Virus record (IMG/VR): IMGVR_UViG_3300042564_004697
Coordinates: 1-37,606 of that record
Reading direction: 5' to 3' (one strand)
Length of the DNA stretch: 37,606 nucleotides
Origin: a virus
The position numbers were made by a program, and so were the translations under genes. Positions 3,549 through 28,333 of this stretch are shown here, one piece after another (position 1 is the stretch's first letter; the number at the start of each line of letters is the position of its first letter). The notes beneath the pieces are model-generated. The model saw only the letters and a program-made list of their open reading frames with translations. It had not been told where the DNA came from and did no database searches.

Positions 3549-3624
3549 GCTCGGTTCATCTAGAGGCCTAGGATAGTGCCCTTTCACGGCATTCACACCG
3601 GTTCGAATCCGGTACCGAGCACCA
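3549..3624 (+). tRNA. tRNA-Glu (TTC)
   Basis: Cloverleaf with acceptor GCTCGGT/ACCGAGC, anticodon loop CTTTCAC (anticodon TTC), T-arm CCGGTTCGAATCCGG and encoded CCA. It is the first tRNA of the array. Its CCA is also the beginning of the left arm of the long-stem element at 3622-3733. Confidence 0.93.
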
Positions 3625-3733
3625 TATAAAAACACATTGTTAAACAGCACAGCCGAATCTGTGTGTAACTCCTAGTCGTAACCTATTGTGAGAGATAGGG
3701 GAGTGTTTCTCTCATCAGTGTGTTTCTATATGG
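3622..3733 (+). ncRNA. Long-stem RNA element 1 of the tRNA array
   Basis: CCATATAAAAACACA (3622-3636) pairs with TGTGTTTCTATATGG (3719-3733), 14 of 15 positions. The enclosed 82 bases hold two local hairpins: CACAG/CTGTG (3648-3652 with 3659-3663) and CCTAT/ATAGG (3682-3686 with 3695-3699), the latter followed by GGGGAG. It is neither a tRNA nor an ORF. The same arm sequence recurs in elements 2, 3 and 5. Function unknown. Confidence 0.6.
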
Positions 3734-3742
3734 TTATATTGT

Positions 3743-3816
3743 TGGGGGTTAGTTAAATGGTATAACCACGGATTTTGATTCCGTTATCACAAGTTCGATT
3801 CTTGTACCCTCTGCCA
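3743..3816 (+). tRNA. tRNA-Gln (TTG)
   Basis: Anticodon loop TTTTGAT on a 5-bp stem ACGGA/TCCGT, T-arm CAAGTTCGATTCTTG and encoded CCA. The first acceptor pair is a T1/T72 mismatch followed by GGGGGT/ACCCTC; a weak 1-72 pair is a known identity feature favoured by glutaminyl-tRNA synthetase. Confidence 0.9.
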
Positions 3817-3834
3817 TTTTTTAAAAGGAAAGTT

Positions 3835-3978
3835 ATGAAACGAAAAACAATCGCCAAAGAACGTAACTGCTTCGTTCGTTTGGCTTTATTCCGTAAAGCA
3901 GGTGTTCATCGCAAGTCTAACAAGGCCTTGCGTAAAGCACAAAAACAAAATCGATTAGAGGGTGAAACTTTAAGGTGA
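3835..3978 (+). CDS. Small basic phage protein overlapping tRNA-Lys
   Basis: A 47-residue, strongly basic protein: MKRKTIAKERNCFVRLALFRKAGVHRKSNKALRKAQKQN and a short acidic end. From memory the RNxFVxLAxFRKAGxHxKSNKALR pattern is a recurrent small phage protein. The ribosome-binding site AAAAGGAAAG precedes ATG 3835; the frame is open further upstream through tRNA-Gln but that part is not coding. Its last 21 bases (3958-3978) are also the 5' end of the tRNA-Lys gene, with the stop codon in the D-loop. It may bind nucleic acid, judged from charge only. Confidence 0.65.
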   Translation: MKRKTIAKERNCFVRLALFRKAGVHRKSNKALRKAQKQNRLEGETLR

Positions 3979-4031
3979 AGTAACTGGCTTTTAACCAGTA
4001 AAATTCGGATCGTTCCCGAACACCCTCACCA
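3958..4031 (+). tRNA. tRNA-Lys (TTT)
   Basis: Acceptor GAGGGTG/CACCCTC is perfect, anticodon stem ACTGG/CCAGT with loop CTTTTAA gives TTT, and CCA is encoded. The T-arm is unusual: stem TTCGG/CCGAA with loop ATCGTTC instead of the normal TTCRANT. The first 21 bases overlap the small ORF ending at 3978, and the CCA overlaps the left arm of the next long-stem element. Confidence 0.8.
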
Positions 4032-4099
4032 TATAAAAACACATTAGTTCCCCGCAGGGATAATTGACAACAGGTTCATGCTATTGTGTTTTTATATGG
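4029..4099 (+). ncRNA. Long-stem RNA element 2 of the tRNA array
   Basis: CCATATAAAAACACA (4029-4043) and TGTGTTTTTATATGG (4085-4099) form a perfect 15-bp stem. Compared with element 5 the eighth pair is A-T here and G-C there, a compensatory change. The 41-base loop contains AGTTCCCCGC and GGGATAA (4046-4063) and GGTTCATGC. The CCA of tRNA-Lys is the first three bases of the stem. Confidence 0.6.
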
Positions 4100-4102
4100 T
4101 AG

Positions 4103-4233
4103 CTATAGAAAAACACACTTTCAATCTGAATTGACAGATACAAACAACCAAGGGGAGCCACTGGGTTCATCCAGTTTCATCCTGAATTGACAGGAACAAG
4201 GTTGTAAGGGGAGCCAAGTGTGTTTTTCTATGG
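4103..4233 (+). ncRNA. Long-stem RNA element 3 with an internal tandem repeat
   Basis: CTATAGAAAAACACACTT (4103-4120) pairs with AAGTGTGTTTTTCTATGG (4216-4233), 18 bp including one G-T. Inside are two related units of about 42 bases, each with a CTGAATTGACAG hairpin and ending AAGGGGAGCCA. The hairpin closing pair is T-A in the first (4125/4138) and C-G in the second (4181/4194), a compensatory change. ACAACC (4144-4149) can pair with GGTTGT (4200-4205), and ACTGG/CCAGT (4160-4175) forms a central hairpin with loop GTTCAT. Confidence 0.6.
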
Positions 4234-4342
4234 TCAGTATTGGTAGATCCCGGACCAACTAGGTTGCTAGTCACAACACATAGGGGAAGGGGAATCGCCA
4301 AGAAGTTGCAAGAGTAGGCTTGACCGCCAGAGGGTAGCAACG
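4234..4342 (+). ncRNA. Linker region 4 between long-stem elements, structured
   Basis: These 109 bases join elements 3 and 5. There is no gene. Visible pairings are ACTAG-GTTG-CTAGT near 4258-4271 and GTTGCTA with TAGCAAC near the end (about 4264 with 4335), plus AGGGGAAGGGGAA in the middle. The right arm of element 3 and the left arm of element 5 are themselves largely complementary with a 2-base bulge, so this linker could also be enclosed by an alternative stem. Confidence 0.35.
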
Positions 4343-4470
4343 CCATATAGAAACACACTAGCATAGAGTGACGTACCCGTTTAGCGGCGGGTGTTATGGG
4401 TTACTCGACTGTCAATCCTCGGGCGGGGAGCTAGCAAGGCGGTTCGACTCCGTAGTGTGTTTCTATATGG
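4343..4470 (+). ncRNA. Long-stem RNA element 5 with a T-arm-like hairpin
   Basis: CCATATAGAAACACACTA (4343-4360) and TAGTGTGTTTCTATATGG (4453-4470) form a perfect 18-bp stem. Inside: GAGTGA pairs with TTACTC around an ACCCG/CGGGT hairpin, and next to the right arm stands GCGG-TTCGACT-CCG (4439-4452), a 7-base T-loop whose 3' strand abuts the long stem as a tRNA T-stem abuts the acceptor stem. It has no anticodon arm and no CCA end. AGTGACGTACC (4367-4377) recurs in element 7. Confidence 0.6.
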
Positions 4471-4521
4471 TAAAACTATTCGAGTTCAATGGTCACACGC
4501 CCTTGCTTGGATTTGAAGTTA

Positions 4522-4634
4522 CCATATTAAAGTATATTTCAGGTTGGGTTAGATTCGCGGTCTAACTATTTGGGATAAAAAGTCGGCGTAATTGCAGGAC
4601 AATAATCTAAGATACGAAATATACTTTAATATGG
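4522..4634 (+). ncRNA. Long-stem RNA element 6, different arm sequence
   Basis: CCATATTAAAGTATATTTC (4522-4540) and GAAATATACTTTAATATGG (4616-4634) form a perfect 19-bp stem. Only the outer CCATA/TATGG is shared with the other elements; the rest differs, yet pairing is complete. The 75-base inside holds GTTAGA-TTCGCGG-TCTAAC (4548-4566), a 7-base-loop hairpin resembling a T-arm. The 51 bases before it (4471-4521) show no gene or clear fold. Confidence 0.6.
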
Positions 4635-4639
4635 TTTAT

Positions 4640-4714
4640 GCAGAGGTTAGTTTAGTGGTAAAACCTCGGGTTGTGATTCCGATATCAAGAGTTCAATTCT
4701 CTTACTTCTGCCCA
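4640..4714 (+). tRNA. tRNA-His (GTG)
   Basis: The anticodon loop TTGTGAT gives GTG. The histidine hallmark is present: an extra G at position -1 (4640) opposite C73 (4711), followed by acceptor CAGAGGT/ACTTCTG. CCA is encoded. Confidence 0.92.
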
Positions 4715-4719
4715 ATAAT

Positions 4720-4795
4720 GCAACCTTAGCTGATGTGGTCATAGCGGCGGCCTGAAGAGCCGTTGAAGTTGGTTCAATTCCAACAGGTTGCACCA
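4720..4795 (+). tRNA. tRNA-Phe (GAA)
   Basis: Acceptor GCAACCT/AGGTTGC, anticodon stem CGGC/GCCG with loop CTGAAGA (GAA), T-arm TTGGTTCAATTCCAA and encoded CCA. Confidence 0.92.
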
Positions 4796-4797
4796 AT

Positions 4798-4877
4798 GCC
4801 CCTATAGACAAATTGGTAAAGTCACTCTCCTCAAAAGGGAGTATATGTTCTCAGTTCGAATCTGAGTAGGGGTACCA
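4798..4877 (+). tRNA. tRNA-Leu (CAA) with a short variable region
   Basis: Acceptor GCCCCTA/TAGGGGT, a leucine-like D region (GACAAATTGGTAAAGTC), anticodon stem CTCTC/GGGAG with loop CTCAAAA (CAA), T-arm CTCAGTTCGAATCTGAG and CCA. The variable region is only about 8 bases (TATATGTT) and forms no arm, unlike the class II arm normal for bacterial leucine tRNA and present in the Leu(TAA) gene at 6164. Confidence 0.82.
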
Positions 4878-4890
4878 AGAAATAATATTT

Positions 4891-4965
4891 GGTCTGTTCG
4901 TATAGAGGTTATTACTGTGGATTGTCTATCCACTTACAGGAGTTCGATTCTCCTACAGACCGCCA
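4891..4965 (+). tRNA. tRNA-Asp (GTC)
   Basis: Acceptor GGTCTGT/ACAGACC, discriminator G, anticodon stem GTGGA/TCCAC with loop TTGTCTA (GTC), T-arm GGAGTTCGATTCTCC and encoded CCA. Confidence 0.93.
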
Positions 4966-5009
4966 AATACTAGACACATCTAGTAAATATGATAGATAGG
5001 TCTAGTGTT

Positions 5010-5084
5010 GCCGAGGTAGCTCAGTGGTAGAGCAGTGTCTTGATAAGGCATTGGCCAAGAGTTCAATTCTCTTTCTCGGTACCA
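5010..5084 (+). tRNA. tRNA-Ile (GAT)
   Basis: Acceptor GCCGAGG/TCTCGGT (G1-T72 wobble), D-arm AGCTCAGTGGTAGAGC typical of isoleucine tRNA, anticodon loop TTGATAA (GAT), T-arm AGAGTTCAATTCTCT and encoded CCA. Confidence 0.9.
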
Positions 5085-5098
5085 AGTTTTTAGTTTTA

Positions 5099-5184
5099 GG
5101 AGATGTGGCCGAGTGGCTGAAGGCGGCAGACTGTAAATCTGTTCTGTAAAAAGCGCGGTGGTTCGAATCCATCCATCTCCACCA
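5099..5184 (+). tRNA. tRNA-Tyr (GTA)
   Basis: Acceptor GGAGATG/CATCTCC, anticodon stem CAGA/TCTG with loop CTGTAAA (GTA) and a long class II variable arm (TTCTGTAAAAAGCGC), as expected for bacterial tyrosine tRNA. CCA is encoded. Confidence 0.93.
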
Positions 5185-5190
5185 ATTTTA

Positions 5191-5221
5191 ATTTTGTAGT
5201 CATAACTACAAATTCTTTTTT
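5191..5221 (+). terminator. Possible intrinsic terminator inside the tRNA array
   Basis: TTTGTAGT (5193-5200) pairs with ACTACAAA (5205-5212) across CATA and is followed by TTCTTTTTTG. The stem is A+T-rich, so termination would be partial. The T-run passes directly into the left arm of the element at 5219. Confidence 0.4.
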
Positions 5222-5424
5222 GTTAAAGTGTCAGCAAGAGAAAGTCACGCTGTCTAGGTTTCTTCGAAGGACCGAAACAGTAGAAGGTTATGGGTTCGAC
5301 ACCCACTAGGTCCATTGAGGCGACTAAACTGGACCGGTATCCCAAGTGACGTACCTCATGCCGTCCGGACTTGTATACTCGGATAAATGAGTTGCTATAA
5401 TTGAGGGGCAACTACTTTAACAAA
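5219..5424 (+). ncRNA. Long-stem RNA element 7 with a tRNA-like minihelix
   Basis: TTTGTTAAAGT (5219-5229) and ACTTTAACAAA (5414-5424) form an 11-bp closing stem around 184 bases. Inside: CAGC/GCTG and CAAGT/ACTTG hairpins, TGAGG/CCTCA, GTTGC/GCAAC near the end with GGGG, and a minihelix in which GGACC (5269-5273) pairs with GGTCC (5309-5313) stacked on TGGG-TTCGACA-CCCA (5291-5305), that is, acceptor stem plus T-arm without D or anticodon arms. AGTGACGTACC (5345-5355) is shared with element 5. No ORF is convincing. Confidence 0.5.
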
Positions 5425-5435
5425 TTCAATGCAAT

Positions 5436-5510
5436 GGGGGATTAGTGATAATGGGAGCACATGTGCTTTGCAAGCATGAAGTGGGAGTTCGATCCTCCCA
5501 TCCTCCACCA
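5436..5510 (+). tRNA. tRNA-Ala (TGC)
   Basis: Acceptor GGGGGAT/ATCCTCC with a G3-T70 wobble (the alanine identity element), anticodon loop TTTGCAA (TGC), T-arm GGGAGTTCGATCCTCCC and encoded CCA. Confidence 0.93.
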
Positions 5511-5516
5511 ATAAAA

Positions 5517-5590
5517 GTCCACTGAATATAAAGAGGTGGCAGATTAATCACCGCAAGGTTTGATTAGCAGTCAGTGAAAGCCTGACACCA
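5517..5590 (+). ncRNA. Structured element ending in CACCA, not a normal tRNA
   Basis: About 74 bases between tRNA-Ala and tRNA-Arg, tRNA-sized and ending CACCA, but with no acceptor stem. Pairings: CACTGA with TCAGTG enclosing a hairpin AATCACC-GCAA-GGTTTGATT (GNRA tetraloop, 2-base bulge), or alternatively GTCAG-TGAAAGC-CTGAC directly before ACACCA. It may be a decayed tRNA or a member of the element family described above. Confidence 0.4.
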
Positions 5591-5594
5591 ATTT

Positions 5595-5669
5595 GGGTCT
5601 TTAGTAAAATGAATATTACACTGGGCTACGAACCCGGAAGTGGGAGTTTGATTCTCTCAAGACCCTCCA
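5595..5669 (+). tRNA. tRNA-Arg (ACG)
   Basis: Acceptor GGGTCTT/AAGACCC, discriminator T, anticodon stem CTGGG/CCCGG with loop CTACGAA (ACG, expected to be edited to ICG by host TadA), T-loop variant TTTGATT and encoded CCA. Confidence 0.9.
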
Positions 5670-5675
5670 AATTTT

Positions 5676-5748
5676 GCGGGTAAGCACAAGGTGTGTCGCC
5701 AGCCTTCCAAGCTGTGCAGTTGGGGTTCGAATCCCCATACCCGCTCCA
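5676..5748 (+). tRNA. tRNA-Gly (TCC)
   Basis: Acceptor GCGGGTA/TACCCGC, discriminator T, anticodon stem CAGC/GCTG with loop CTTCCAA (TCC), T-arm GGGGTTCGAATCCCC and encoded CCA. Confidence 0.92.
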
Positions 5749-5754
5749 GTTTTT

Positions 5755-5828
5755 CTCTGTGTGGTGAAATGGTATCATTCATGGTTTGGGACCATGAGGC
5801 GAAGGTTCGATTCCTTCTACGGAGACCA
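5755..5828 (+). tRNA. tRNA-Pro (TGG)
   Basis: Acceptor CTCTGTG/TACGGAG (one T-G and one G-T wobble), anticodon stem CATGG/CCATG with loop TTTGGGA (TGG), T-arm GAAGGTTCGATTCCTTC and encoded CCA. Confidence 0.91.
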
Positions 5829-5837
5829 AGTTTTTAT

Positions 5838-5916
5838 TCCGCAAAACCCGAGCAAGGTGCATGGGCGTGACTGTTAATCACTGGTTAGTAGAGTTCGATC
5901 CTCTAATGCGGAGCCA
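5838..5916 (+). tRNA. tRNA-Asn (GTT)
   Basis: Acceptor TCCGCA/TGCGGA, discriminator G, anticodon stem GTGA/TCAC with loop CTGTTAA (GTT), T-arm AGAGTTCGATCCTCT and encoded CCA. Confidence 0.91.
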
Positions 5917-5923
5917 ATTTTAA

Positions 5924-5998
5924 GCCCTTTTATCCTTAATGGTAGAGGTCCGGTTTTGTAGTCCGGGTGTGTGAGTTCGATTCTTGCAAAGGGCACCA
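5924..5998 (+). tRNA. tRNA-Thr (TGT)
   Basis: Acceptor GCCCTTT/AAAGGGC, anticodon loop TTTGTAG (TGT) on a CCGG/CCGG stem with a T-T mismatch at the loop-closing pair, and encoded CCA. Confidence 0.88.
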
Positions 5999-6001
5999 AT
6001 T

Positions 6002-6077
<76 letters not shown>

Positions 6078-6085
6078 AATTATAA

Positions 6086-6162
6086 GTCTCGGTAGCTCAA
6101 TTAGGCAGAGCAGTGGCCTCCAAAGCCAAAGGTTGTAAGTTCGATTCTTACTCGGGTCGCCA
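6086..6162 (+). tRNA. tRNA-Trp (CCA)
   Basis: Anticodon stem TGGC/GCCA with loop CTCCAAA (CCA), T-arm GTAAGTTCGATTCTTAC, discriminator G and encoded CCA. The acceptor GTCTCGG/TCGGGTC has a T2/T71 mismatch. Confidence 0.88.
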
Positions 6163-6163
6163 A

Positions 6164-6250
6164 GCAAGTGTGGTGAAATAGGTAGACACAAGAGACTTAA
6201 AATCTCTCGCCCGCGAGGGCGTGCCGGTTCGATTCCGGCCACTTGCACCA
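6164..6250 (+). tRNA. tRNA-Leu (TAA), class II
   Basis: Acceptor GCAAGTG/CACTTGC, anticodon loop CTTAAAA (TAA), a normal long variable arm (CGCCCGCGAGGGCGT), T-arm GCCGGTTCGATTCCGGC and encoded CCA. Confidence 0.93.
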
Positions 6251-6255
6251 AATTT

Positions 6256-6331
6256 CGCGGGTTACGTCAGAGGTCAGACTATCAGGCTCATAACCTGGAG
6301 GACGGAGGTTCGAATCCTTCACCCGCATCCA
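6256..6331 (+). tRNA. Initiator tRNA-fMet (CAT)
   Basis: Anticodon stem TCAGG/CCTGG with loop CTCATAA (CAT). The acceptor is CGCGGGT/ACCCGCA with the C1/A72 mismatch that marks bacterial initiator tRNA and prevents EF-Tu binding. The discriminator is T, which is unusual, and CCA is encoded. The three-G:C anticodon stem of cellular initiators is not complete. Confidence 0.82.
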
Positions 6332-6334
6332 ATA

Positions 6335-6409
6335 CTGGCGTTAGTATAATGGATAATACAGTAGCCTTCTAAGCTATCAATAGAGGTTCGATTCCTCTAC
6401 GCCGGACCA
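6335..6409 (+). tRNA. tRNA-Arg (TCT)
   Basis: Acceptor CTGGCGT/ACGCCGG, anticodon stem TAGC/GCTA with loop CTTCTAA (TCT), T-arm AGAGGTTCGATTCCTCT and encoded CCA. Confidence 0.92.
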
Positions 6410-6411
6410 AA

Positions 6412-6486
6412 GCCTTGTTATTTCAGTGGTAGAATGTCTCTTTTACACGGAGAAGGTCGGCAGTTCGAATCTGTCACAAGGTACCA
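6412..6486 (+). tRNA. tRNA-Val (TAC)
   Basis: Acceptor GCCTTGT/ACAAGGT, anticodon stem TCTCT/GGAGA with loop TTTACAC (TAC), T-arm GCAGTTCGAATCTGT and encoded CCA. Confidence 0.9.
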
Positions 6487-6495
6487 TAAATATTT

Positions 6496-6570
6496 GGACA
6501 TATAGCACAGCGGTAGTGCAACGTCTTCATACGGCGTAGGTCAGTAGTTCGAATCTACTTATGTCCGCCA
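6496..6570 (+). tRNA. tRNA with CAT anticodon (elongator Met or Ile2)
   Basis: Acceptor GGACATA/TATGTCC, discriminator G, anticodon stem ACGTC/GGCGT with loop TTCATAC (CAT), T-arm AGTAGTTCGAATCTACT and encoded CCA. With the CAT tRNAs at 6002 and 6256 this makes three: one initiator and probably one elongator Met and one Ile2. Confidence 0.86.
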
Positions 6571-6573
6571 AAT

Positions 6574-6650
6574 GCCCCTGTGACGGAATTGGTATACGTG
6601 TTGGTCTTAGAAGCCAAATTTTTGGAGTTCGAGTCTCCACGGGGGCACCA
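6574..6650 (+). tRNA. tRNA-Leu (TAG) with a short variable region
   Basis: Acceptor GCCCCTG/CGGGGGC, anticodon stem TTGGT/GCCAA with loop CTTAGAA (TAG), T-arm TGGAGTTCGAGTCTCCA and encoded CCA. As in the Leu(CAA) gene at 4798, the variable region is only about 5 bases (ATTTT), so this is class I shaped although leucine tRNAs are normally class II. Confidence 0.83.
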
Positions 6651-6656
6651 AATTAT

Positions 6657-6733
6657 GTGCGTGTGTAGCTGAACGGTTAGGCGCGGGATTGCAAATCCTT
6701 TCCATGCAGGTTCGATTCCTGTCACGCACTCCA
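6657..6733 (+). tRNA. tRNA-Cys (GCA)
   Basis: Acceptor GTGCGTG/CACGCAC, discriminator T (the cysteine identity base), anticodon loop TTGCAAA (GCA), T-arm GCAGGTTCGATTCCTGT and encoded CCA. Confidence 0.91.
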
Positions 6734-6748
6734 TTATAGAAAGTTAAT

Positions 6749-7219
6749 ATGAAAAATATAGACATTGCAGAAGTGAAAGCGTTTATCGATGCTCAGTCAC
6801 CACAAACCAAAATTTACATTGGAGCAGACTCCGAACGTTTTAAAGTTGGTGGTATTTGGTTTGCAGATTATACGCTTGCTGTTGTTGTTCATATTGATGG
6901 GTGTCACGGTTGTAAAATCTTTGGAGAAGTTCAGCGAGAGAGGGACTACGACCAACGTAAAAACAAGCCTTCAATGCGCTTGATGAATGAAGTTTATAAA
7001 GTTTCTGATTTATTTCAGAAACTTAAAGAAGCATTGGAAGACCGTACTGTTGAGGTACACTTGGACATTAATCCAAACGAAATGTATGGAAGTTCATGTG
7101 TGATTCAACAGGCAATTGGTTATATTAAAGGCACATGCAATGTGACACCTTTGGTTAAACCAAGTGCATTTGCGGCTTCATATGCTGCTGACCGCATGAA
7201 GATGTTGTTAGCTGCTTAA
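6749..7219 (+). CDS. Predicted RNase H-like nuclease (DUF458/YkuK type)
   Basis: A 156-residue protein with an RNase H-like start (IYIGADSERFK, first Asp at about residue 27), a central ERDYDQRKNKPSMRLMNEVYK segment and HLDINPNE around residues 98-105, which holds the next acidic positions. C-terminally VKPSAFAASYAADR is typical of the family. From memory this matches the DUF458 group related to Bacillus YkuK. It may process or cleave RNA or RNA-DNA hybrids; its place between tRNA genes invites an RNA role, but that is inference. It has its own weak site (AGAAAGTTAAT) 16 bases after tRNA-Cys. Confidence 0.8.
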   Translation: MKNIDIAEVKAFIDAQSPQTKIYIGADSERFKVGGIWFADYTLAVVVHIDGCHGCKIFGEVQRERDYDQRKNKPSMRLMNEVYKVSDLFQKLKEALEDRTVEVHLDINPNEMYGSSCVIQQAIGYIKGTCNVTPLVKPSAFAASYAADRMKMLLAA

Positions 7220-7226
7220 AGAAATA

Positions 7227-7318
7227 GGAAGATGATGCAGGTGGGATGGTCCGCCGACTGGCCTTGAAAACCAGGTTCTCTTAATCGGGATGGGGTTCGA
7301 CTCCTCCGTCTTCCGCCA
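7227..7318 (+). tRNA. tRNA-Ser (TGA)
   Basis: Acceptor GGAAGAT/GTCTTCC, anticodon loop CTTGAAA (TGA), a long class II variable arm (GTTCTCTTAATCGGGAT), T-arm GGGGTTCGACTCCTC, discriminator G and encoded CCA. Confidence 0.9.
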
Positions 7319-7334
7319 ATCAATAAATATAGTT

Positions 7335-7637
7335 ATGAAATATTACATATTCTTTCTTCTATTGGTAGTTGGCATCTCTGTTGCACAGTCTGTAACTGTG
7401 CAGAAGTCTGTGGAATGTACCGACACGGAAACAATGTTTCGTGGGTTAATTAATAGTGATTATAAAGAAAAACCTATTTGGTGGGGTGTCGAGCCCGGAA
7501 GTAATGTTTCGAAATACAGTTTGTTTGTCAATGAACAAACCAAATCATGGACATTAATTCAATTCGATGGTAAAATGGCCTGTGTGCTGGGTGCAGGTGA
7601 AAACAGCACCAGAATATTTACTGGACCTAGTATATGA
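7335..7637 (+). CDS. Small secreted phage protein
   Basis: A 100-residue protein with a signal peptide: MKYYIFFLLLVVGISVAQS, probable cleavage after AQS. The mature part contains two Cys (VECTDTE and MACVLGAG), an FRGLIN block and EKPIWWG, then YSLFVNEQTKSWTLIQF. The pattern of Cys, P-x-W-W-G, L-x-x-N-x-x-T-x-x-W-T and C-V-L-G is, from memory, common in small exported proteins of T4-like phages. Function unknown; it acts in the periplasm. The frame is open upstream into tRNA-Ser, but ATG 7335 after the tRNA end is the sensible start. Confidence 0.75.
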   Translation: MKYYIFFLLLVVGISVAQSVTVQKSVECTDTETMFRGLINSDYKEKPIWWGVEPGSNVSKYSLFVNEQTKSWTLIQFDGKMACVLGAGENSTRIFTGPSI

Positions 7638-7834
7638 AAATAACTCAAATCGATACAATTTATGGCCTGCAGGGTTCCGATAAATTGATTACACAATATG
7701 TGAAGACTAATTATGATTCAGGCAATTCAACCATCGATGTTATAAGACGGCAATATAGTGTTATTCTGTATGACAAAGACGGCAAAGAAGACAATTACAC
7801 CAATAACGGTAAAACGGTGGATTTACAAACATAG
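7634..7834 (+). CDS. Hypothetical protein
   Basis: A 66-residue protein (MKITQIDTIYGLQGSDKLIT... DKDGKEDNYTNNGKTVDLQT) starting in an ATGA overlap with the secreted protein before it. It has predicted strands and a polar, Asp/Asn-rich end, with no signal peptide. Its last codons overlap the -35 region of the promoter at 7822. Function not recognised. Confidence 0.6.
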   Translation: MKITQIDTIYGLQGSDKLITQYVKTNYDSGNSTIDVIRRQYSVILYDKDGKEDNYTNNGKTVDLQT

Positions 7835-7850
7835 GTTTTTGTGATATACT
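7822..7850 (+). promoter_or_regulatory. Sigma-70 promoter with extended -10 for tRNA-Ser (GCT)
   Basis: TTTACA (7822-7827), a 17-base spacer and TATACT (7845-7850) preceded by TGA (TGn extended -10). Initiation is expected near 7857, two bases before the mature 5' end of the tRNA at 7859, so this tRNA would be transcribed almost without a leader. Confidence 0.65.
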
Positions 7851-7858
7851 GGATGTAT

Positions 7859-7948
7859 GGAGTGTGGGCAGGACGGTAATGCAGCTGATTGCTAATCAGT
7901 AGACTCATGAAAGTGGGTCACAGGGTTCGACTCCCTGACACTCCACCA
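7859..7948 (+). tRNA. tRNA-Ser (GCT)
   Basis: Acceptor GGAGTGT/ACACTCC, anticodon stem CTGA/TCAG with loop TTGCTAA (GCT), a long class II variable arm (AGACTCATGAAAGTGGGT), T-arm CAGGGTTCGACTCCCTG and encoded CCA. It is the last tRNA of the array. Confidence 0.92.
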
Positions 7949-11715: not shown

Positions 11716-12483
11716 ATGAAGAAAACCGTTGTTGTCATTTCCGGTGGATTTGACCCTATTCATTCTGGTCACATTGAACTGATAAAAAAAGCATCTGCAT
11801 TGGGTGATAAACTAATCGTTGGATTAAATTCTGATGGTTGGTTGACTCGCAAAAAAGGCAGGTCTTTCATGTGTGTGCATGAACGCCGAAAAGTACTTGA
11901 GTCAATCAAGTGGGTTGATGAAGTTTGGGAATTTGATGACTCAGACGATTCAGCTTGTGATTTGCTTGAACAAGTAACAATGAATCATCCATCAATTGAG
12001 GATACTATTATCTTTGCAAATGGTGGTGACAGAACAGAAGGCAACATCCGTGAAATGGAAGTTCCTGGTATTCAATTTGTATTTGGTGTAGGTGGCTCTG
12101 ATAAGAAGAATTCATCGTCATGGATTCTAGAAGAATGGAAAGCACCAAAGGTCGAAAGGCCTTGGGGTTATTATCGAGTGTTACATGAAGTGAAAGGATG
12201 TAAGGTTAAAGAGCTTACAGTAAATCCTAAAAAAAGTTTAAGTATGCAAAAACATTTTAAACGCCACGAGCTATGGCATGTCACTGAAGGCAAATGTATA
12301 GTTAATCAACAGATGCAAGGCGGTTATCAGTTGCCGCCATTAGAACTTATTACACATAGTCGGTTGTCTATACCTCAGGGAGATTGGCATCAATTAACGA
12401 ATCCATTTAATGAGCCTTGTAAAATTGTTGAGATACAATACGGAACACATTGTGAAGAAGAAGACATAGAGAGGGAAACATGA
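11716..12483 (+). CDS. Cytidylyltransferase-like/cupin fusion (sugar activation)
   Basis: A 255-residue fusion. Residues 1-140 are a nucleotidyltransferase of the HxGH family: GGFDPIHSGHIELIKKA (HSGH at 16-19), VGLNSDGWLTRKKGR and NSSSWILEEW in the place of the ISSTxIR motif; relatives activate glycerol-phosphate or heptose-phosphate with CTP or ATP. Residues 145-245 are a cupin like type II mannose-6-phosphate isomerase: VERPWGYYRVL, then QKHFKRHELWHVTEG (metal ligands near Q178, H180, E185) and QGDWHQLTN. It probably makes an activated sugar for the glycosyltransferase downstream. Fusion of these two domains is the odd feature. Confidence 0.8.
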   Translation: MKKTVVVISGGFDPIHSGHIELIKKASALGDKLIVGLNSDGWLTRKKGRSFMCVHERRKVLESIKWVDEVWEFDDSDDSACDLLEQVTMNHPSIEDTIIFANGGDRTEGNIREMEVPGIQFVFGVGGSDKKNSSSWILEEWKAPKVERPWGYYRVLHEVKGCKVKELTVNPKKSLSMQKHFKRHELWHVTEGKCIVNQQMQGGYQLPPLELITHSRLSIPQGDWHQLTNPFNEPCKIVEIQYGTHCEEEDIERET

Positions 12484-13396: not shown

Positions 13397-14335
13397 ATGA
13401 CTACAGTATTAGTTACTGGTGCTTCGGGTTATCTTGGATCGCACTTGTGTAAAAAATTGAAACAAGAAGGTATCAAGGTTGTTGGTTATGATTCTAAACC
13501 ACCAAAACATGGACACATGGATATTTTCTATGAAGGTGATATTCGCAGAAAAAGTTCCCTACTGGATTTATTCTCACGTGTTAAAATTGATTCGGTATTT
13601 CATTTAGCCGCAAGAATAGAAGTTGGTCTATCGTGGGAATATCCAAATGAATTTATGGATGTTAACACCGGTGGTACTTGCAACCTGTTAAATGTTATGT
13701 CAATGTTCAGAGTGAAAAATATTATATACTCCTCGACCGCAGGCGTGTATGCACCGAGTAATGTGCCAATCAAAGAGAATGGTAAGACTGCTGAGAATCA
13801 TCCATATGGCATTTCAAAGCAATTGGCCGAGACTGCCATTCGTTACTCAAACATCAATCATGTAATCTTTCGGTATTTTAATCTTGGTGGTGCTGACTTA
13901 GATGGAGAAATGGGTGAGTGCCATGATCCAGAAACACATCTGATACCGAACATCCTACAAAATCTAAATAACTTTGAAATTTATGGTGATAACTATGAAA
14001 CACCAGATGGCACATGCGTCCGTGACTATGTGCATGTCTGTGATGTTGCCGATGCTCATTTTGATGCTTTTAATTATTTGAATGAAGGCAAGAAATCTAT
14101 AACTTTAAATTTGGGTACAGGTCAAGGCGTTTCGGTATTAGAAATGGTAAATTTAGTTTCAGAAATTACGGGTGAATATGTTGATTATGATATTTTGCCT
14201 AGGCGTCAAGGTGACCCACCTATTTTGATTGCCGATATCAGTCTTGCCGAAAAAGTCTTGCGTTACCGACCTAAACATGATATAATGAGTATTATTGCAA
14301 CAGCTAGTGAGTGGCACAAAAATGAGAGCATCTAA
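13397..14335 (+). CDS. galE: UDP-glucose 4-epimerase-like enzyme
   Basis: A 312-residue extended short-chain dehydrogenase: NAD-binding TGASGYLGSHL at 7-17, DIR at 48-50, FHLAARIEVG (69-78), YSSTAGVYAP (111-120), the catalytic Y137/K141 in PYGISK and RYFNLGG after it. It interconverts UDP-glucose and UDP-galactose or the N-acetyl forms; the substrate cannot be fixed. It is slightly shorter than E. coli GalE (338). It lies one base after the glycosyltransferase gene and overlaps the ClpP gene. Confidence 0.85.
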   Translation: MTTVLVTGASGYLGSHLCKKLKQEGIKVVGYDSKPPKHGHMDIFYEGDIRRKSSLLDLFSRVKIDSVFHLAARIEVGLSWEYPNEFMDVNTGGTCNLLNVMSMFRVKNIIYSSTAGVYAPSNVPIKENGKTAENHPYGISKQLAETAIRYSNINHVIFRYFNLGGADLDGEMGECHDPETHLIPNILQNLNNFEIYGDNYETPDGTCVRDYVHVCDVADAHFDAFNYLNEGKKSITLNLGTGQGVSVLEMVNLVSEITGEYVDYDILPRRQGDPPILIADISLAEKVLRYRPKHDIMSIIATASEWHKNESI

Positions 14336-14924
14336 TCCGATGAAACAAAATTTAGTTGATGACAGCTTCGATGCTGGTGGTTGGTTTGATGTGGTTAATC
14401 AGCGTTTGCTGGATAACAGCATTCATTTCCTTACGGGTGAAATTGAAGAAGGAAACATCCATCGTGCGATGCAATGGATTGTATATGAAAATTTAAATGT
14501 TACTAGCGATAGATTTTTAACACTGTACATCAATTCAACCGGAGGCAACTTGACTGATGCATTTGGATTAATTGACTTGATGAAGACATCCGTTATACCT
14601 ATTAGGACTATTGGAGTTGGTTCAGTTATGAGTGCTGCATTCCTTATTTTCTCCTCAGGTGACCAAGGTCATAGATACATTGCTAAGAATACATCTTGTA
14701 TGTGCCATCAATATTCAACCGAAATTCAAGGTAAGTTTCACGATATCAAATCTGAAATGATTGAAGCTAACTATACGAACGAACGCATGTTAAATTTATT
14801 GGTTGAAAACACGCAACTTACCGAACGTGAAGTCAAGAAAAAATTGTTGCCTGCCACAGACATTTGGTTGCAGCCACAGGAGTTGATTGAGCTCAATGTT
14901 GCGGATCGTATTTTTGGAGCATAA
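14322..14924 (+). CDS. clpP: ClpP-like serine protease
   Basis: A 200-residue protein from ATG 14322 (an ATG at 14340 is an alternative). It has the ClpP fold signature: TLYINSTGGNLTDAFGLIDLM, GVGSVMSAAFLIFSSG with nucleophile S104, CMCHQYS with H129 and ATDIWLQPQELIELNVAD with D180, so the triad is complete. No ClpX or other AAA+ partner is seen in the window, so it may pair with the host ATPase, replace host ClpP subunits or act on small peptides. It overlaps the epimerase end by 14 bases. Confidence 0.88.
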   Translation: MRASNPMKQNLVDDSFDAGGWFDVVNQRLLDNSIHFLTGEIEEGNIHRAMQWIVYENLNVTSDRFLTLYINSTGGNLTDAFGLIDLMKTSVIPIRTIGVGSVMSAAFLIFSSGDQGHRYIAKNTSCMCHQYSTEIQGKFHDIKSEMIEANYTNERMLNLLVENTQLTEREVKKKLLPATDIWLQPQELIELNVADRIFGA

Positions 14925-23520: not shown

Positions 23521-24110
23521 TGTTGTATCCAATTGAACCTGTTAACGGTTTTGGTAAAGACGAAATGGCCCTCTGGGATGGGTTTTTAACCGATGCAGAG
23601 ATTAATCTATTGTTAGCGCAGCCTGAGTGGTTAGCAACTGAAAAGGCGGCCGTTGGTATTGGTACTGTGAATGATGATGTACGTATAACGCAAGTTGGTT
23701 GGTTAGGGCCGAAGGCAGAACTTCTGCCTATTTGGGAAAAACTGTCCAAGATTGTGGCCGAAGTGAACCGCCGGTTTTTTCAGTTTGACTTGACTGGTTT
23801 TTATGAACCAATGCAGATCGGCATTTACAGTTCTGATAACAAAGGACATTACGACTGGCACACAGATGCCAGTGCTAAAGATACTAACGCTCCACGCAAA
23901 CTGTCTATTGCTCTGATGTTGTCAGATCAGTCGGAGTTTGAAGGAGGAGAATTTCAAGTGCGAGTATCCACAGATACACCACAGACATTGGAAACCAAGC
24001 GAGGTAGAGCATGGTTTTTTCCATCGTATGTTATGCACCGAGTGCAGCCAGTCACTAAAGGAGTGCGGCGCTCTCTTGTGATTTGGGTTGGTGGCCCTCC
24101 GTTTAAATGA
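23520..24110 (+). CDS. 2-oxoglutarate/Fe(II) oxygenase 3 (PKHD-type)
   Basis: A 196-residue prolyl-4-hydroxylase-like (PiuC/PKHD family) enzyme. GHYDWHTDAS gives H114-x-D116, SEFEGGEFQV follows, then GRAWFFPSYVMHRVQPVTKG with H173 and the R184-S motif for 2-oxoglutarate, ending VIWVGGPPF. The arrangement is complete. It is the third, clearly diverged oxygenase in a row. The tmRNA acceptor piece starts directly after its stop codon. Confidence 0.88.
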   Translation: MLYPIEPVNGFGKDEMALWDGFLTDAEINLLLAQPEWLATEKAAVGIGTVNDDVRITQVGWLGPKAELLPIWEKLSKIVAEVNRRFFQFDLTGFYEPMQIGIYSSDNKGHYDWHTDASAKDTNAPRKLSIALMLSDQSEFEGGEFQVRVSTDTPQTLETKRGRAWFFPSYVMHRVQPVTKGVRRSLVIWVGGPPFK

Positions 24111-24175
24111 ATGGTAGTAAACTAATTTTTTGAAAAGTGTTCTGGACGCGGGTTCGACTCCCGCCAGGTCCACCA
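24111..24175 (+). ncRNA. ssrA: Permuted tmRNA, acceptor (3') piece
   Basis: GGACGCGGG-TTCGACT-CCCGCC (24144-24165), followed by CAGGTCC-A-CCA (24165-24175), is the 3' tRNA-like part of tmRNA and nearly identical to the E. coli end. The acceptor strand CAGGTCC (24165-24171) pairs over all seven positions with GGGCCTG (24230-24236), which lies downstream: the two halves are in permuted order. TTCTGG (24140-24145) can pair with CCAGTA of the coding piece to form helix P2. The 5' end of this piece is set at the preceding stop codon only for convenience. Confidence 0.88.
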
Positions 24176-24229
24176 AAAGCATACTGGACTGGGAGTATTT
24201 TGTAAAAAGACCTCTGGTATGCTTTTGAT
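24174..24229 (+). other. Intervening segment of the permuted tmRNA
   Basis: The bases between the two tmRNA pieces. CAAAAGCATAC (24174-24184) and GTATGCTTTTG (24217-24227) form a perfect 11-bp stem that begins at the CCA and ends three bases before the coding piece, so it would stack on the acceptor stem and hold both pieces together before processing. The segment 24176-24229 is expected to be removed. Confidence 0.75.
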
Positions 24230-24420
24230 GGGCCTGCCATGGTTTCGACAGGGCAACCAGTATGAATATTGGCTACTCGGGAATGCAGAACCCGTAGGAT
24301 TGAGGTAACTCGGTCGTAGAAGCAAAAAAATAAATGCAAATGACGAAAGTTACGCATTGGCAGCCTAAACGCTGACTAGGGTTTTTATAGGTTTCCTCGT
24401 AACAGAATAACCTATTAATT
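24230..24420 (+). ncRNA. ssrA: Permuted tmRNA, coding (5') piece, tag ANDESYALAA
   Basis: It starts GGGCCTGCCATGGTTTCGAC, the conserved 5' end of tmRNA. The tag frame begins with resume codon GCA at 24336 after an A-rich stretch and reads ANDESYALAA, stop TAA at 24366-24368; E. coli has ANDENYALAA. A hairpin ATAGGTT/AACCTAT (24387-24393 with 24409-24415) lies near the 3' end, which I place around 24420. It rescues stalled ribosomes with SmpB and marks peptides for ClpXP-type proteases. No one-piece 3' end follows; the next gene starts at 24443. Confidence 0.9.
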
Positions 24421-24442
24421 TTAACTTATATAAGGAATTAAT

Positions 24443-24604
24443 ATGAAATCGATTATCGCACTAGTAATGTTGGCATTCGCAACTGTTTCTTTCGCAGCTG
24501 AACCTGCAAAGAAAGAAGAAGCTAAACCGGCAGCCAAAAAAGAAGAAGTTAAGCCTGCAGCTAAGAAAGCTGAACCGGCTAAAACTGAACCTGCAAAAAA
24601 ATAA
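24443..24604 (+). CDS. Exported Lys/Ala-rich peptide
   Basis: A 53-residue protein with a clear signal peptide (MKSIIALVMLAFATVSFA, cleaved after SFA). The mature part is a low-complexity repeat of EPAKKEEAKPAAKKEE type, like a TonB linker or histone-H1 tail. It would be periplasmic and cationic/zwitterionic, able to bind peptidoglycan or nucleic acid. SD AAGGAAT at 24430-24436. It is the first gene after the tmRNA. Function unknown. Confidence 0.65.
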   Translation: MKSIIALVMLAFATVSFAAEPAKKEEAKPAAKKEEVKPAAKKAEPAKTEPAKK

Positions 24605-25002: not shown

Positions 25003-25563
25003 ATGCAAAGTAAGATTGTGCTTTTAAGCGCATTTTTATCAAGTGTTATTTTAATGTTAGCTTCAATTAATGTTGATTTACACAACATTATGCCATTCAA
25101 GGCAAGCTATCAGTCTCTATCCGAAGAGGCAAAAAAACATGTGACATGTCTGGCTGAGAATATATATTTCGAGTCGGCACACGAACCCGTTGCTGGTCAA
25201 ATGGCTGTTGCGTTTGTTACGTTAAATCGTGTACAGACCGGCAACTATGCTAGTAATATTTGCGATGTAGTAACCCAAAAGACCGGTAACACTTGCCAAT
25301 TTTCTTGGTATTGTGACTCCTTCTTTACCTCAAAACGGTTGACAATCAAGAGTACAAAGTTGTATAATGATATCAGAGAGTTAGCAACAAACCTGTACAT
25401 TAATTTTGATCGGATGGAGGATGTTACAAACGGTGCGACATATTATCATGCAGATTATGTTAATCCAAATTGGACAAAACTTCAGAAGGAGACTAAAATT
25501 GGCAGGCATATTTTCTACAAGAGCAAAGGTGATAAAATTGACCGAACAAAAGGAGTTATTTAA
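25003..25563 (+). CDS. SleB/CwlJ-type cell-wall hydrolase
   Basis: A 186-residue protein: an N-terminal hydrophobic segment (residues 5-21, IVLLSAFLSSVILMLAS) acts as signal or membrane anchor, then the Hydrolase_2 domain: CLAENIYFESAHEPVAGQMAVAFVTLNRV with the likely catalytic Glu at 52 or 57, ICDVV, CQFSWYCD and a final GATYYHADYVNPNW. Such enzymes cleave peptidoglycan glycan strands. With its N-terminal anchor it may be the phage endolysin (signal-arrest type) or a lysis helper. SD AAGGAAT. Confidence 0.85.
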   Translation: MQSKIVLLSAFLSSVILMLASINVDLHNIMPFKASYQSLSEEAKKHVTCLAENIYFESAHEPVAGQMAVAFVTLNRVQTGNYASNICDVVTQKTGNTCQFSWYCDSFFTSKRLTIKSTKLYNDIRELATNLYINFDRMEDVTNGATYYHADYVNPNWTKLQKETKIGRHIFYKSKGDKIDRTKGVI

Positions 25564-25794: not shown

Positions 25795-26067
25795 ATGGCA
25801 GTGAAACAATTTAGTATTAATCAAATCTCCAGTGAAGCGGACCGCAAGAAATTGTTGGACGCTATAAAAGAGTGTTCAAATTCTATGACACGAATGGACG
25901 GAGAAAAAGACTTCATTAAAGAAGCAGTGAAAAAAGTTTCAGATGATTTGAAATTGCCTAAACCTGTTGTTCAGCGTTTGGTTAAAGTTTATCATAAACA
26001 AAACTATGATGAAGAAGTGGCTACGCACGAACAATTTGAACAATTGTATGAAACGATTGTGAAGTAA
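25795..26067 (+). CDS. dsbA: DsbA-like double-strand DNA-binding protein
   Basis: A 90-residue protein, the same length as T4 DsbA (89), ending KPVVQRLVKVYHKQNYDEEV and EQFEQLYETIVK, which aligns with the T4 end (RLLALYHKDNRDVFEAE). T4 DsbA binds double-stranded DNA at late promoters. Here it is followed by gp33, gp59 and, after a HAD gene, gp32, preserving the T4 order. SD TTAGGAG. It overlaps gp33 by one base (TAATG). Confidence 0.88.
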   Translation: MAVKQFSINQISSEADRKKLLDAIKECSNSMTRMDGEKDFIKEAVKKVSDDLKLPKPVVQRLVKVYHKQNYDEEVATHEQFEQLYETIVK

Positions 26068-26291
26068 TGCCAACTAAAGAAGAAATGAAGAAGTTTTCTG
26101 TGGAGATTGATAGATTCGTCTCCGAAAGAAACATTAATCATCTTGAAGCTATAGTTGAGTATTGTGCAGAAACGGGTCTCGAAACGGAAGTCGCCGCAAC
26201 ATTAATTAATTCGAATTTAAAATCGAAAATTGAGTTGTTGGCTTCCGATTTGAACATGCTGAAAGTGAAGAAATCTCGTCTACCTATATGA
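26067..26291 (+). CDS. 33: gp33 late-transcription coactivator
   Basis: A 74-residue protein; the core NHLEAIVEYCAETGLETEVA and LINSNLKSKIELLASDLNML, then RLPI, is the conserved part of T4 gp33 (112 residues). gp33 links RNA polymerase, via the beta flap, to the sliding clamp at late promoters, with sigma factor gp55. Its presence supports the TATAAATA boxes called here. TAATG and ATGA overlaps couple it to DsbA and gp59. Confidence 0.9.
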   Translation: MPTKEEMKKFSVEIDRFVSERNINHLEAIVEYCAETGLETEVAATLINSNLKSKIELLASDLNMLKVKKSRLPI

Positions 26292-26878
26292 CTGGTTATG
26301 AAACATTTGCGTTATTCAATTCATTAAAACTACACTTCAACCGAGAATCTTACGATTACTTTAAATACAATGGTAAAAGTAATATCTCAGTTGAAGCGTT
26401 TGAGAATAGGCGTGACAAATACCACTTTCACAAGTTGTCAAGGAAGTACACAAGTAAGGATGACATGGAATTATTTTTCGTGTCCAACTTGGTTGAGAAA
26501 CCTAACACTTGGGCTGGTGATTTGTTAACTGAAGAAGCAGATATTAATTACAAGACTCACCAAAAGGTGTTACAATCACTATCGTATTTTTTCGAAAACG
26601 ATTGTCACGTACTATTTGATGGTTGCGACAATCCAAACGATTTGTTCAAAGTGAATGACGGTGATTACCCTGTAATTTTACGCAAGACTATGCAGAAGGT
26701 GACACAAATTGAAACCTTGTGTATACTGAATAAGATACTTGCTTTCGAACCTAACTGGAACACTAAGATTGCCGACACTATTCGGTGGCCAGAATTTCGG
26801 TTAAGGTTGCTCAAGTATGCCACATTTCTACCACAAGATGTGTTAAAATATAAACTTATTCTAAAGAAAATGATATGA
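26288..26878 (+). CDS. 59: gp59 helicase loader
   Basis: A 196-residue protein (T4 gp59 has 217) with MTGYETFALFNSLKLHFNRESYDYFKYNGK at the start, the most conserved region of the family, then RRDKYHFHKLSRKY and a C-terminal helical part FEPNWNTKIADTIRWPEFRLRLLKY. gp59 loads helicase gp41 on forked DNA coated with gp32. It is coupled to gp33 (4-base overlap) and to the HAD gene (4-base overlap). Confidence 0.92.
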   Translation: MTGYETFALFNSLKLHFNRESYDYFKYNGKSNISVEAFENRRDKYHFHKLSRKYTSKDDMELFFVSNLVEKPNTWAGDLLTEEADINYKTHQKVLQSLSYFFENDCHVLFDGCDNPNDLFKVNDGDYPVILRKTMQKVTQIETLCILNKILAFEPNWNTKIADTIRWPEFRLRLLKYATFLPQDVLKYKLILKKMI

Positions 26879-27445: not shown

Positions 27446-28333
27446 ATGAGTACATTCGAAAATTTACAACGCAATCGTGGCAAGTTCGACAAATTGTCAA
27501 AGGCGATTGAAGCAACCGGCACTCCAGCAGAAGCCGGTTCTAAAGATGACACCAGATTCTGGCAACCAGAAGTTGATAAAGCTGGTAACGGCATGGCGAT
27601 AATTCGTTTCTTGCCAAGTCCGGCAGTCGATGGTGATGATGCTCTGCCATGGGTTCGGGTGTTTACACACGGATTTCAAGGACCTGGAGGTTGGTTCATC
27701 GATAACTGTTTGACTACTTTGAACGATAAGTGTCCAGTGTGTGAACACAACAGCACACTTTGGAATTCTGGTATCGAAGCCAACAAAGAAGTTGCTCGTA
27801 AACAAAAGCGCAAGTTGACTTACATGACAAATATTTTGGTCGTTTCTGACCCAAGTAATCCGTCAAACGAAGGACAAGTTCGCTTGTTCAAATTCGGTAA
27901 GAAAATTTTCGACAAGATTAACGAAGCAATGAATCCTGAATTTGCCGATGAAACACCAATCAACCCATTTGATTTATGGGAAGGTGCTAACTTCAAGTTG
28001 AAGATTCGCAATGTTGAAGGTTATCGTAATTATGACAAATCAGAATTTGCTAGCAAGTCTGTCTTGTCTGAAAATGATACTGAGTTGGAAACAATTTGGA
28101 AGAAAGAATATTCTCTCAAGGAATTTACTGAACCAAAGTTGTTCAAACCTTACAACCAGTTGAAGGCTCGTTTGGATAAAGTATTGGGCTTTGAAGGCAT
28201 TGCACCTTCAAGCACTGCTGAGTCTATTGACCTCTCTCCGCCAGCAGCTAAGTTTTCACCTCGTCAATCAGCACCAGTTGACACTGGTGGAGATGATGAT
28301 TTGGAATACTTCAAGTCTCTCGCTGAAGAATAA
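27446..28333 (+). CDS. 32: gp32 single-stranded DNA-binding protein
   Basis: A 295-residue protein (T4: 301). The N-terminal MSTFENLQRNRGKFDKLSKA is the cooperativity region with the LAST-like basic patch. The OB core carries the zinc site H75, C88, C96 and C99 (FTHGFQ, DNCL, KCPVCEHN). The acidic C-terminal tail DDDLEYFKSLAEE binds gp59 and other partners. It coats single-stranded DNA in replication and recombination. Its 73-base leader (27373-27445) contains CTATATAAGTC and an SD AAGGAAAT. It ends at a strong terminator. Confidence 0.95.
   Translation: MSTFENLQRNRGKFDKLSKAIEATGTPAEAGSKDDTRFWQPEVDKAGNGMAIIRFLPSPAVDGDDALPWVRVFTHGFQGPGGWFIDNCLTTLNDKCPVCEHNSTLWNSGIEANKEVARKQKRKLTYMTNILVVSDPSNPSNEGQVRLFKFGKKIFDKINEAMNPEFADETPINPFDLWEGANFKLKIRNVEGYRNYDKSEFASKSVLSENDTELETIWKKEYSLKEFTEPKLFKPYNQLKARLDKVLGFEGIAPSSTAESIDLSPPAAKFSPRQSAPVDTGGDDDLEYFKSLAEE

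Follow-up and report, generated by a model that had tools for sequence, protein, structure and literature searches.

The IMG/VR record IMGVR_UViG_3300042564_004697 is a 37,606-base fragment of a T4-like phage, a freshwater virus of bacteria. The whole stretch was analysed and is referred to here as the window. It encodes homologues of gp32, gp33 and gp59 together with baseplate, tail-tube and head-closure genes. Twenty-four tRNA genes, which cover most amino acids, are clustered at 3549-7948 (ARAGORN), and a cytidylyltransferase-like domain is fused to a mannose-6-phosphate isomerase C-terminal domain in one protein encoded at 11716-12483. A complete circularly permuted (two-piece) tmRNA gene with the tag ANDESYALAA lies at 24113-24423. 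It is directly preceded by a 2OG-Fe(II) oxygenase gene (PF13640), the stop codon of which ends at 24110. The features discussed below are the following, with the supporting evidence in brackets.

14295-14924, + strand: phage ClpP protease subunit (PF00574, 5.4e-29; PDB ClpP, 4e-18)
24113-24175, + strand: upstream half, 3' (acceptor) piece of the mature tmRNA (RF04321 and RF01850 alignments, ARAGORN, covariation)
24113-24117 / 24273-24277, + strand: GGTAG / CTACT pairing (model alignments)
24138-24144 / 24249-24255, + strand: P2 strands TGTTCTG / CAGGGCA (model alignments)
24148-24164, + strand: T-arm (RF04321 and RF01850 alignments, ARAGORN)
24165-24171, + strand: acceptor 3' strand CAGGTCC (sequence)
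24172-24175, + strand: encoded ACCA (sequence)
24175-24184 / 24217-24226, + strand: closing stem of the intervening segment, 10 bp and a possible eleventh G-U pair (sequence, fold)
24176-24229, + strand: intervening segment, predicted to be removed from the precursor (sequence, fold, covariation)
24230-24423, + strand: downstream half, 5' and mRNA-like piece (RF01850 alignment to 24423, sequence)
24230-24236, + strand: acceptor 5' strand GGGCCTG, with G3-U70 (sequence)
24336-24368, + strand: tag frame ANDESYALAA and TAA (ARAGORN)
24336-24338, + strand: resume codon GCA (sequence)
24366-24368, + strand: stop codon TAA (sequence)
24387-24392 / 24410-24415, + strand: terminal stem (RF01850 alignment, sequence)
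25003-25563, + strand: cell wall hydrolase (Hydrolase_2), downstream of the tmRNA (PF07486, 1.1e-21; neighbourhood table)
26067-26291, + strand: gp33-like late-promoter transcription factor (phrog_254, neighbourhood)
26288-26878, + strand: gp59 helicase loader (phrog_269, 2.7e-55)
27446-28333, + strand: gp32 single-strand DNA binding protein (phrog_224, 6.8e-109)

ARAGORN predicts a single permuted tmRNA at 24083-24459 with the same tag. In a cmscan search, the general permuted model RF04321 (tmRNA_permuted) matched 24113-24368 with 141.9 bits (E 4.3e-28; cut-off 47), and the betaproteobacterial model RF01850 matched 24062-24423 with 127.3 bits (cut-off 84). The alpha model RF01849 scored 68.9 bits, and the cyanobacterial model RF01851 scored 46.5 bits, under its cut-off of 70. 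The window tmRNA is thus of the betaproteobacterial type, RF01850 being the best of the alpha, beta and cyano models. These searches bear out an earlier note, made from the sequence alone, that had proposed a phage-encoded permuted tmRNA with this tag in a T4-like phage and had called for a comparison with the permuted models. Neither a second tmRNA nor a complete one-piece ssrA 3' end further downstream, which the note had named among the findings that would speak against it, was detected within the window by ARAGORN or the Rfam search.

The separated acceptor strands form seven pairs and the GCA resume codon opens the tag frame, both as the note had read them from the letters; G3-U70 is among the seven pairs. 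Two other details required correction. P2 is not formed by CCAGTA and TTCTGG, but by the strands listed above, and the gene starts at 24113 rather than 24144, with a GGTAG element that pairs with CTACT. The pre-tag lies in the downstream half, between the P2 strand and the tag frame. Among phage relatives, 523 of 560 P2 cells hold standard pairs, compared to 431 +/- 6 after shuffling, and for acceptor stem and P2 the standard pairs exceed those in all of 1000 reshufflings. When the joined or two-strand RNA was folded by minimum free energy, P2 did not form, and it was therefore taken from the covariance-model pairing. Of 80 anchored phage genes, 57 show G3-U70 and 17 are out of register. Among distinct phage tags, 69/85 end in AA and 45/85 in ALAA. 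With the charged alanine, the window tag would read AANDESYALAA, which is one residue off the E. coli tag. Promoter-like sites near the gene are mostly on the opposite strand, and no terminator-like site was found directly 3' of it.

The stem in the intervening segment covaries as well. Across 113 distinct phage genes, standard pairs occupy 545 of 791 cells, compared to 378 +/- 14 when partners are reshuffled. All these shuffles ignore relatedness, yet several positions show at least four pair types. The note had described an 11-bp stem that would clamp both pieces. The stem is real, with 10 bp and perhaps a G-U pair in addition, but a clamp on the mature pieces is not feasible, since the segment would be excised; the stem would act on the precursor. 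An open frame of 14 codons within the segment has no ATG and was judged to be due to chance. In some other IMG/VR loci (designated by L and a number), the intervening segment carries small frames with Shine-Dalgarno-like starts (L231 and L232, with the tmRNA at 1461 and 847, respectively; L260; L002:46050-46200). Such frames, with 50 codons in L231 for example, may be genes nested in a tmRNA gene.

The earlier note considered a permuted tmRNA in a T4-like phage to be rare or undescribed, which is at odds with the literature and with the databases. According to Buchholz et al. (2022), the T4-like phage Melnitz has a two-piece tmRNA, and two-piece structures make up 53 of 133 unique phage tmRNAs (PMC9004378). 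RF04321 itself derives from a study that gives 79 phage tmRNA sequences (PMC11915505). The annotation of Pelagibacter phage Mosig includes SsrA, and our pattern scan of IMG/VR for permuted tmRNA identified at least 120 viral contigs. The tmRNAs of mycobacteriophage Bxz1 and Bacillus phage G are, unlike the window tmRNA, one-piece molecules with the standard gene order. These two phages also encode a tmRNA of their own (PMC4131195). New to our knowledge are the conserved tmRNA locus, the co-occurrence with ClpP in the absence of SmpB, and the variability of the tmRNA gene with its associated cassettes.

The closest described counterparts are in Methylophilales phage Melnitz and Pelagibacter phage Mosig (MZ577096, MT647606), which like the window are T4-like with a permuted tmRNA upstream of gp33 and gp59. 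Their tmRNAs are of the alpha type, whereas that of the window is of the beta type, and the intervening segment and the tag differ too; Melnitz has a glutamine riboswitch right behind the tmRNA gene. With the betaproteobacterial permuted tmRNA, as captured by RF01850 and the general model RF04321, the window gene shares the order of parts, the T-arm, P2, pre-tag and tag layout, and its tag is identical to the Alcaligenaceae tag. In the RF01850 alignment a P5-like stem is present. In contrast to the bacterial genes, the window gene has an intervening segment longer than in the bacterial examples examined, it is without the last, terminator-like 3' hairpin of the model, and it sits in a phage gene cluster. 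A search for the nearest phage DNA with the tmRNA gene turned up nothing beyond short or patchy matches, and whole-gene comparisons were therefore done on IMG/VR loci.

The gene order tmRNA - Hydrolase_2 - gp33 - gp59 - gp32 is conserved. A same-strand gp33, gp59 or gp32 gene lies at most 7 kb downstream in 37 of 114 contigs picked by the tmRNA pattern, only 50 of which extend 4 kb downstream. Conversely, where a close relative of gp32 has 4.5 kb or more of sequence upstream, a permuted tmRNA is present in 17/27 cases, and the gp59-linked phage tmRNA genes are all permuted and beta-type (18/18). The locus is kept even between phages that share only about 50% identity in gp59. In Mosig and Melnitz, the alpha-type tmRNA is likewise just upstream of gp33. 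Three Synechococcus phages have no tmRNA at the gp33-gp59-gp32 position. Alpha and beta genes in the same place suggest replacement at one locus or independent insertion.

The window also encodes a ClpP, 9.2 kb upstream of the tmRNA, which matches PF00574 with 101.8 bits (cut-off 20.2). The triad S113, H138 and D189 is invariant in an alignment of 14 phage homologues, and the window protein is predicted to be active. In counts uncorrected for ancestry, a permuted tmRNA above the cut-off was found in 8 of 10 large contigs picked by ClpP only (two of the eight being near copies), a ClpP match in 9/13 large contigs picked by tmRNA (6 of them strong), and both genes in 4/4 contigs picked by gp59 or gp32. 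In a random control of 40 contigs retrieved with an arbitrary 14-mer, 12 of which exceed 55 kb, the respective numbers were 0/40 for permuted tmRNA above the cut-off and 2/40 for a distant ClpP match. The association may in part come from the shared ancestry and habitat of these phages. ClpP is at most 3 kb downstream on the same strand in about 17 of the 114 tmRNA-picked contigs. It was not found beside gp59 or gp32 in loci picked by those genes, and a tmRNA is at most 6 kb away in only 9/79 ClpP loci, so that we claim an association for whole contigs only. No SmpB was found in this 37.6-kb fragment or in 18 other records, and function would therefore depend on the host. A literature search found no report that links ClpP with phage tmRNA, although a paper could have been missed.

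Taken together, we think it likely (probability roughly 0.85) that the window carries an intact beta-type permuted tmRNA of a phage lineage, which works as a two-piece rescue and tagging RNA by way of host factors. We infer the following course from its anatomy. A single transcript would fold with the intervening stem stacked on the acceptor stem, and host RNase P and 3' nucleases would cut out the intervening segment. The two pieces would stay joined through the acceptor stem, P2 and the GGTAG/CTACT pairing. Host alanyl-tRNA synthetase would charge the RNA via G3-U70, and host SmpB and EF-Tu would deliver it to ribosomes stalled on broken mRNA. Translation would restart at the GCA at 24336, append ANDESYALAA and stop, thereby freeing the ribosome. 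The tagged product would be passed to ClpXP, possibly with the phage ClpP acting together with host ClpX. The likely benefit would be that ribosomes are kept available while mRNA is degraded during infection. The data show a widespread freshwater phage family with the tmRNA at one fixed position, ClpP elsewhere in the genome and a hypervariable tag, so that tests of ribosome rescue in infected cells can be combined with tests of proteolysis. This bears on the question of why phages carry tmRNA.

The gene could instead be a passenger, the permuted ssrA recently captured from the current host. Its beta type would fit, as would the tag, which is the same as in Alcaligenaceae such as Brackiella, Oligella and Advenella. 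Over the full gene, other phages nevertheless give the best matches, and the locus is conserved among phages that are as distant as stated above. A 157-row tree places the window inside a phage-only group of 44 rows (SH-aLRT 99); in a more careful 74-row tree it has no well-supported small clade. The tree draws on some 190 columns of a gene that recombines, and it ignores recombination. AU tests reject a grouping of the window with the bacterial beta genes as a whole (p 0.03) or with Alcaligenaceae alone (p 0.002). In the order to which Brackiella belongs, only 4 of 150 sampled genomes (centre included) have a permuted match above 100 bits. We consider a recent capture quite unlikely. The sequence comparisons indicate that the gene belongs to a long-established phage lineage of beta-type permuted tmRNAs. 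The suggestion of the earlier note that the gene came from a host with a two-piece tmRNA thus stands loosely, on the strength of the beta type, and the bacterial donor that it hoped to find by phylogeny did not emerge.

tmRNA genes are common integration sites, and the gene might be a pseudogene or scar left by a temperate phage that integrated at ssrA, a use of tmRNA genes raised in PMC9004378. This is highly improbable for a T4-like phage in which the termini, core helices and tag frame are all intact and the covarying precursor stem is maintained. It also seems unlikely that the RNA is a decoy or inhibitor that titrates SmpB off the host tmRNA, a role suggested for mycobacteriophage DS6A, whose tmRNA has the tRNA-like part only. 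RNA of the DS6A type, when expressed, does inhibit tmRNA (PMC11915505, PMC4131195), but the window gene has a full mRNA-like part and an open tag frame with an ALAA end, and most phage genes conserve the end of the tag.

Compared to its close relatives, the window is 92-98% identical at the DNA level in Hydrolase_2, gp33 and gp59, but only 68-73% in the tmRNA. L221 and L224 share 98.6% identity as far as the pre-tag and 97.3% past an insertion of about 575 bases in L221. The insertion supplies its own tag (ANDERFLMAA) and 3' end, together with an antisense ORF of 128 codons, which matches the phrog_314 homing endonuclease (4.5e-12) and in Pfam only a weak NUMOD3 motif. The 69 bases behind it match the 3' end of the L214-type allele exactly. 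This arrangement recurs in L263, L030 and L114, where the remnants measure 50 to 65 bases and are 91-92% identical to cassette-free alleles. An antisense cassette with a new tag and the old 3' end displaced behind it is thus seen in four lineages. L017 has the antisense ORF and no detected remnant. Homing-endonuclease-like antisense ORFs at the tmRNA 3' end were noted at L221:1970-2590 and also in L212, L219, L388, L263, L030 and L114; none is present in the window.

Judging from this architecture, tags seem to be swapped among relatives, perhaps by homing cassettes. The window pre-tag is 94.5% identical to that of L221, and the window tag 97% identical to that of L224. Because the pre-tag resembles a cassette-bearing and the tag a cassette-free allele, the window may be a mosaic. 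Tentatively, and at somewhat below even odds, tmRNA and ClpP could form a tag-and-destroy module that borrows host SmpB and ClpX, with cassettes that invade the tmRNA gene and substitute a pre-tag, tag and 3' end of their own, behind which the former 3' end persists, the window being one such mosaic. If true, the cassettes would offer a route to invade a tmRNA gene and rebuild it with a different degradation signal. Titles and abstracts of the best-ranked papers on homing endonucleases and tmRNA mention no link between the two, although one may have been missed.

Several further variants were seen. The T-loop of the close relatives L212, L214 and L224 is GTGCGAATC, not GTTCGAATC. Tags in L046, L068, L077 and L085 end in AV instead of AA (for example AKASTGEVTVSGKNVKFSARTVKAESFAV). 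Long tags of 23-33 residues, such as ANADTFDFSAMSFTGNTVRGAANESRFALAA, occur in the permuted phage tmRNAs of L032, L112, L007, L461 and others, several of them in contigs of more than 200 kb.
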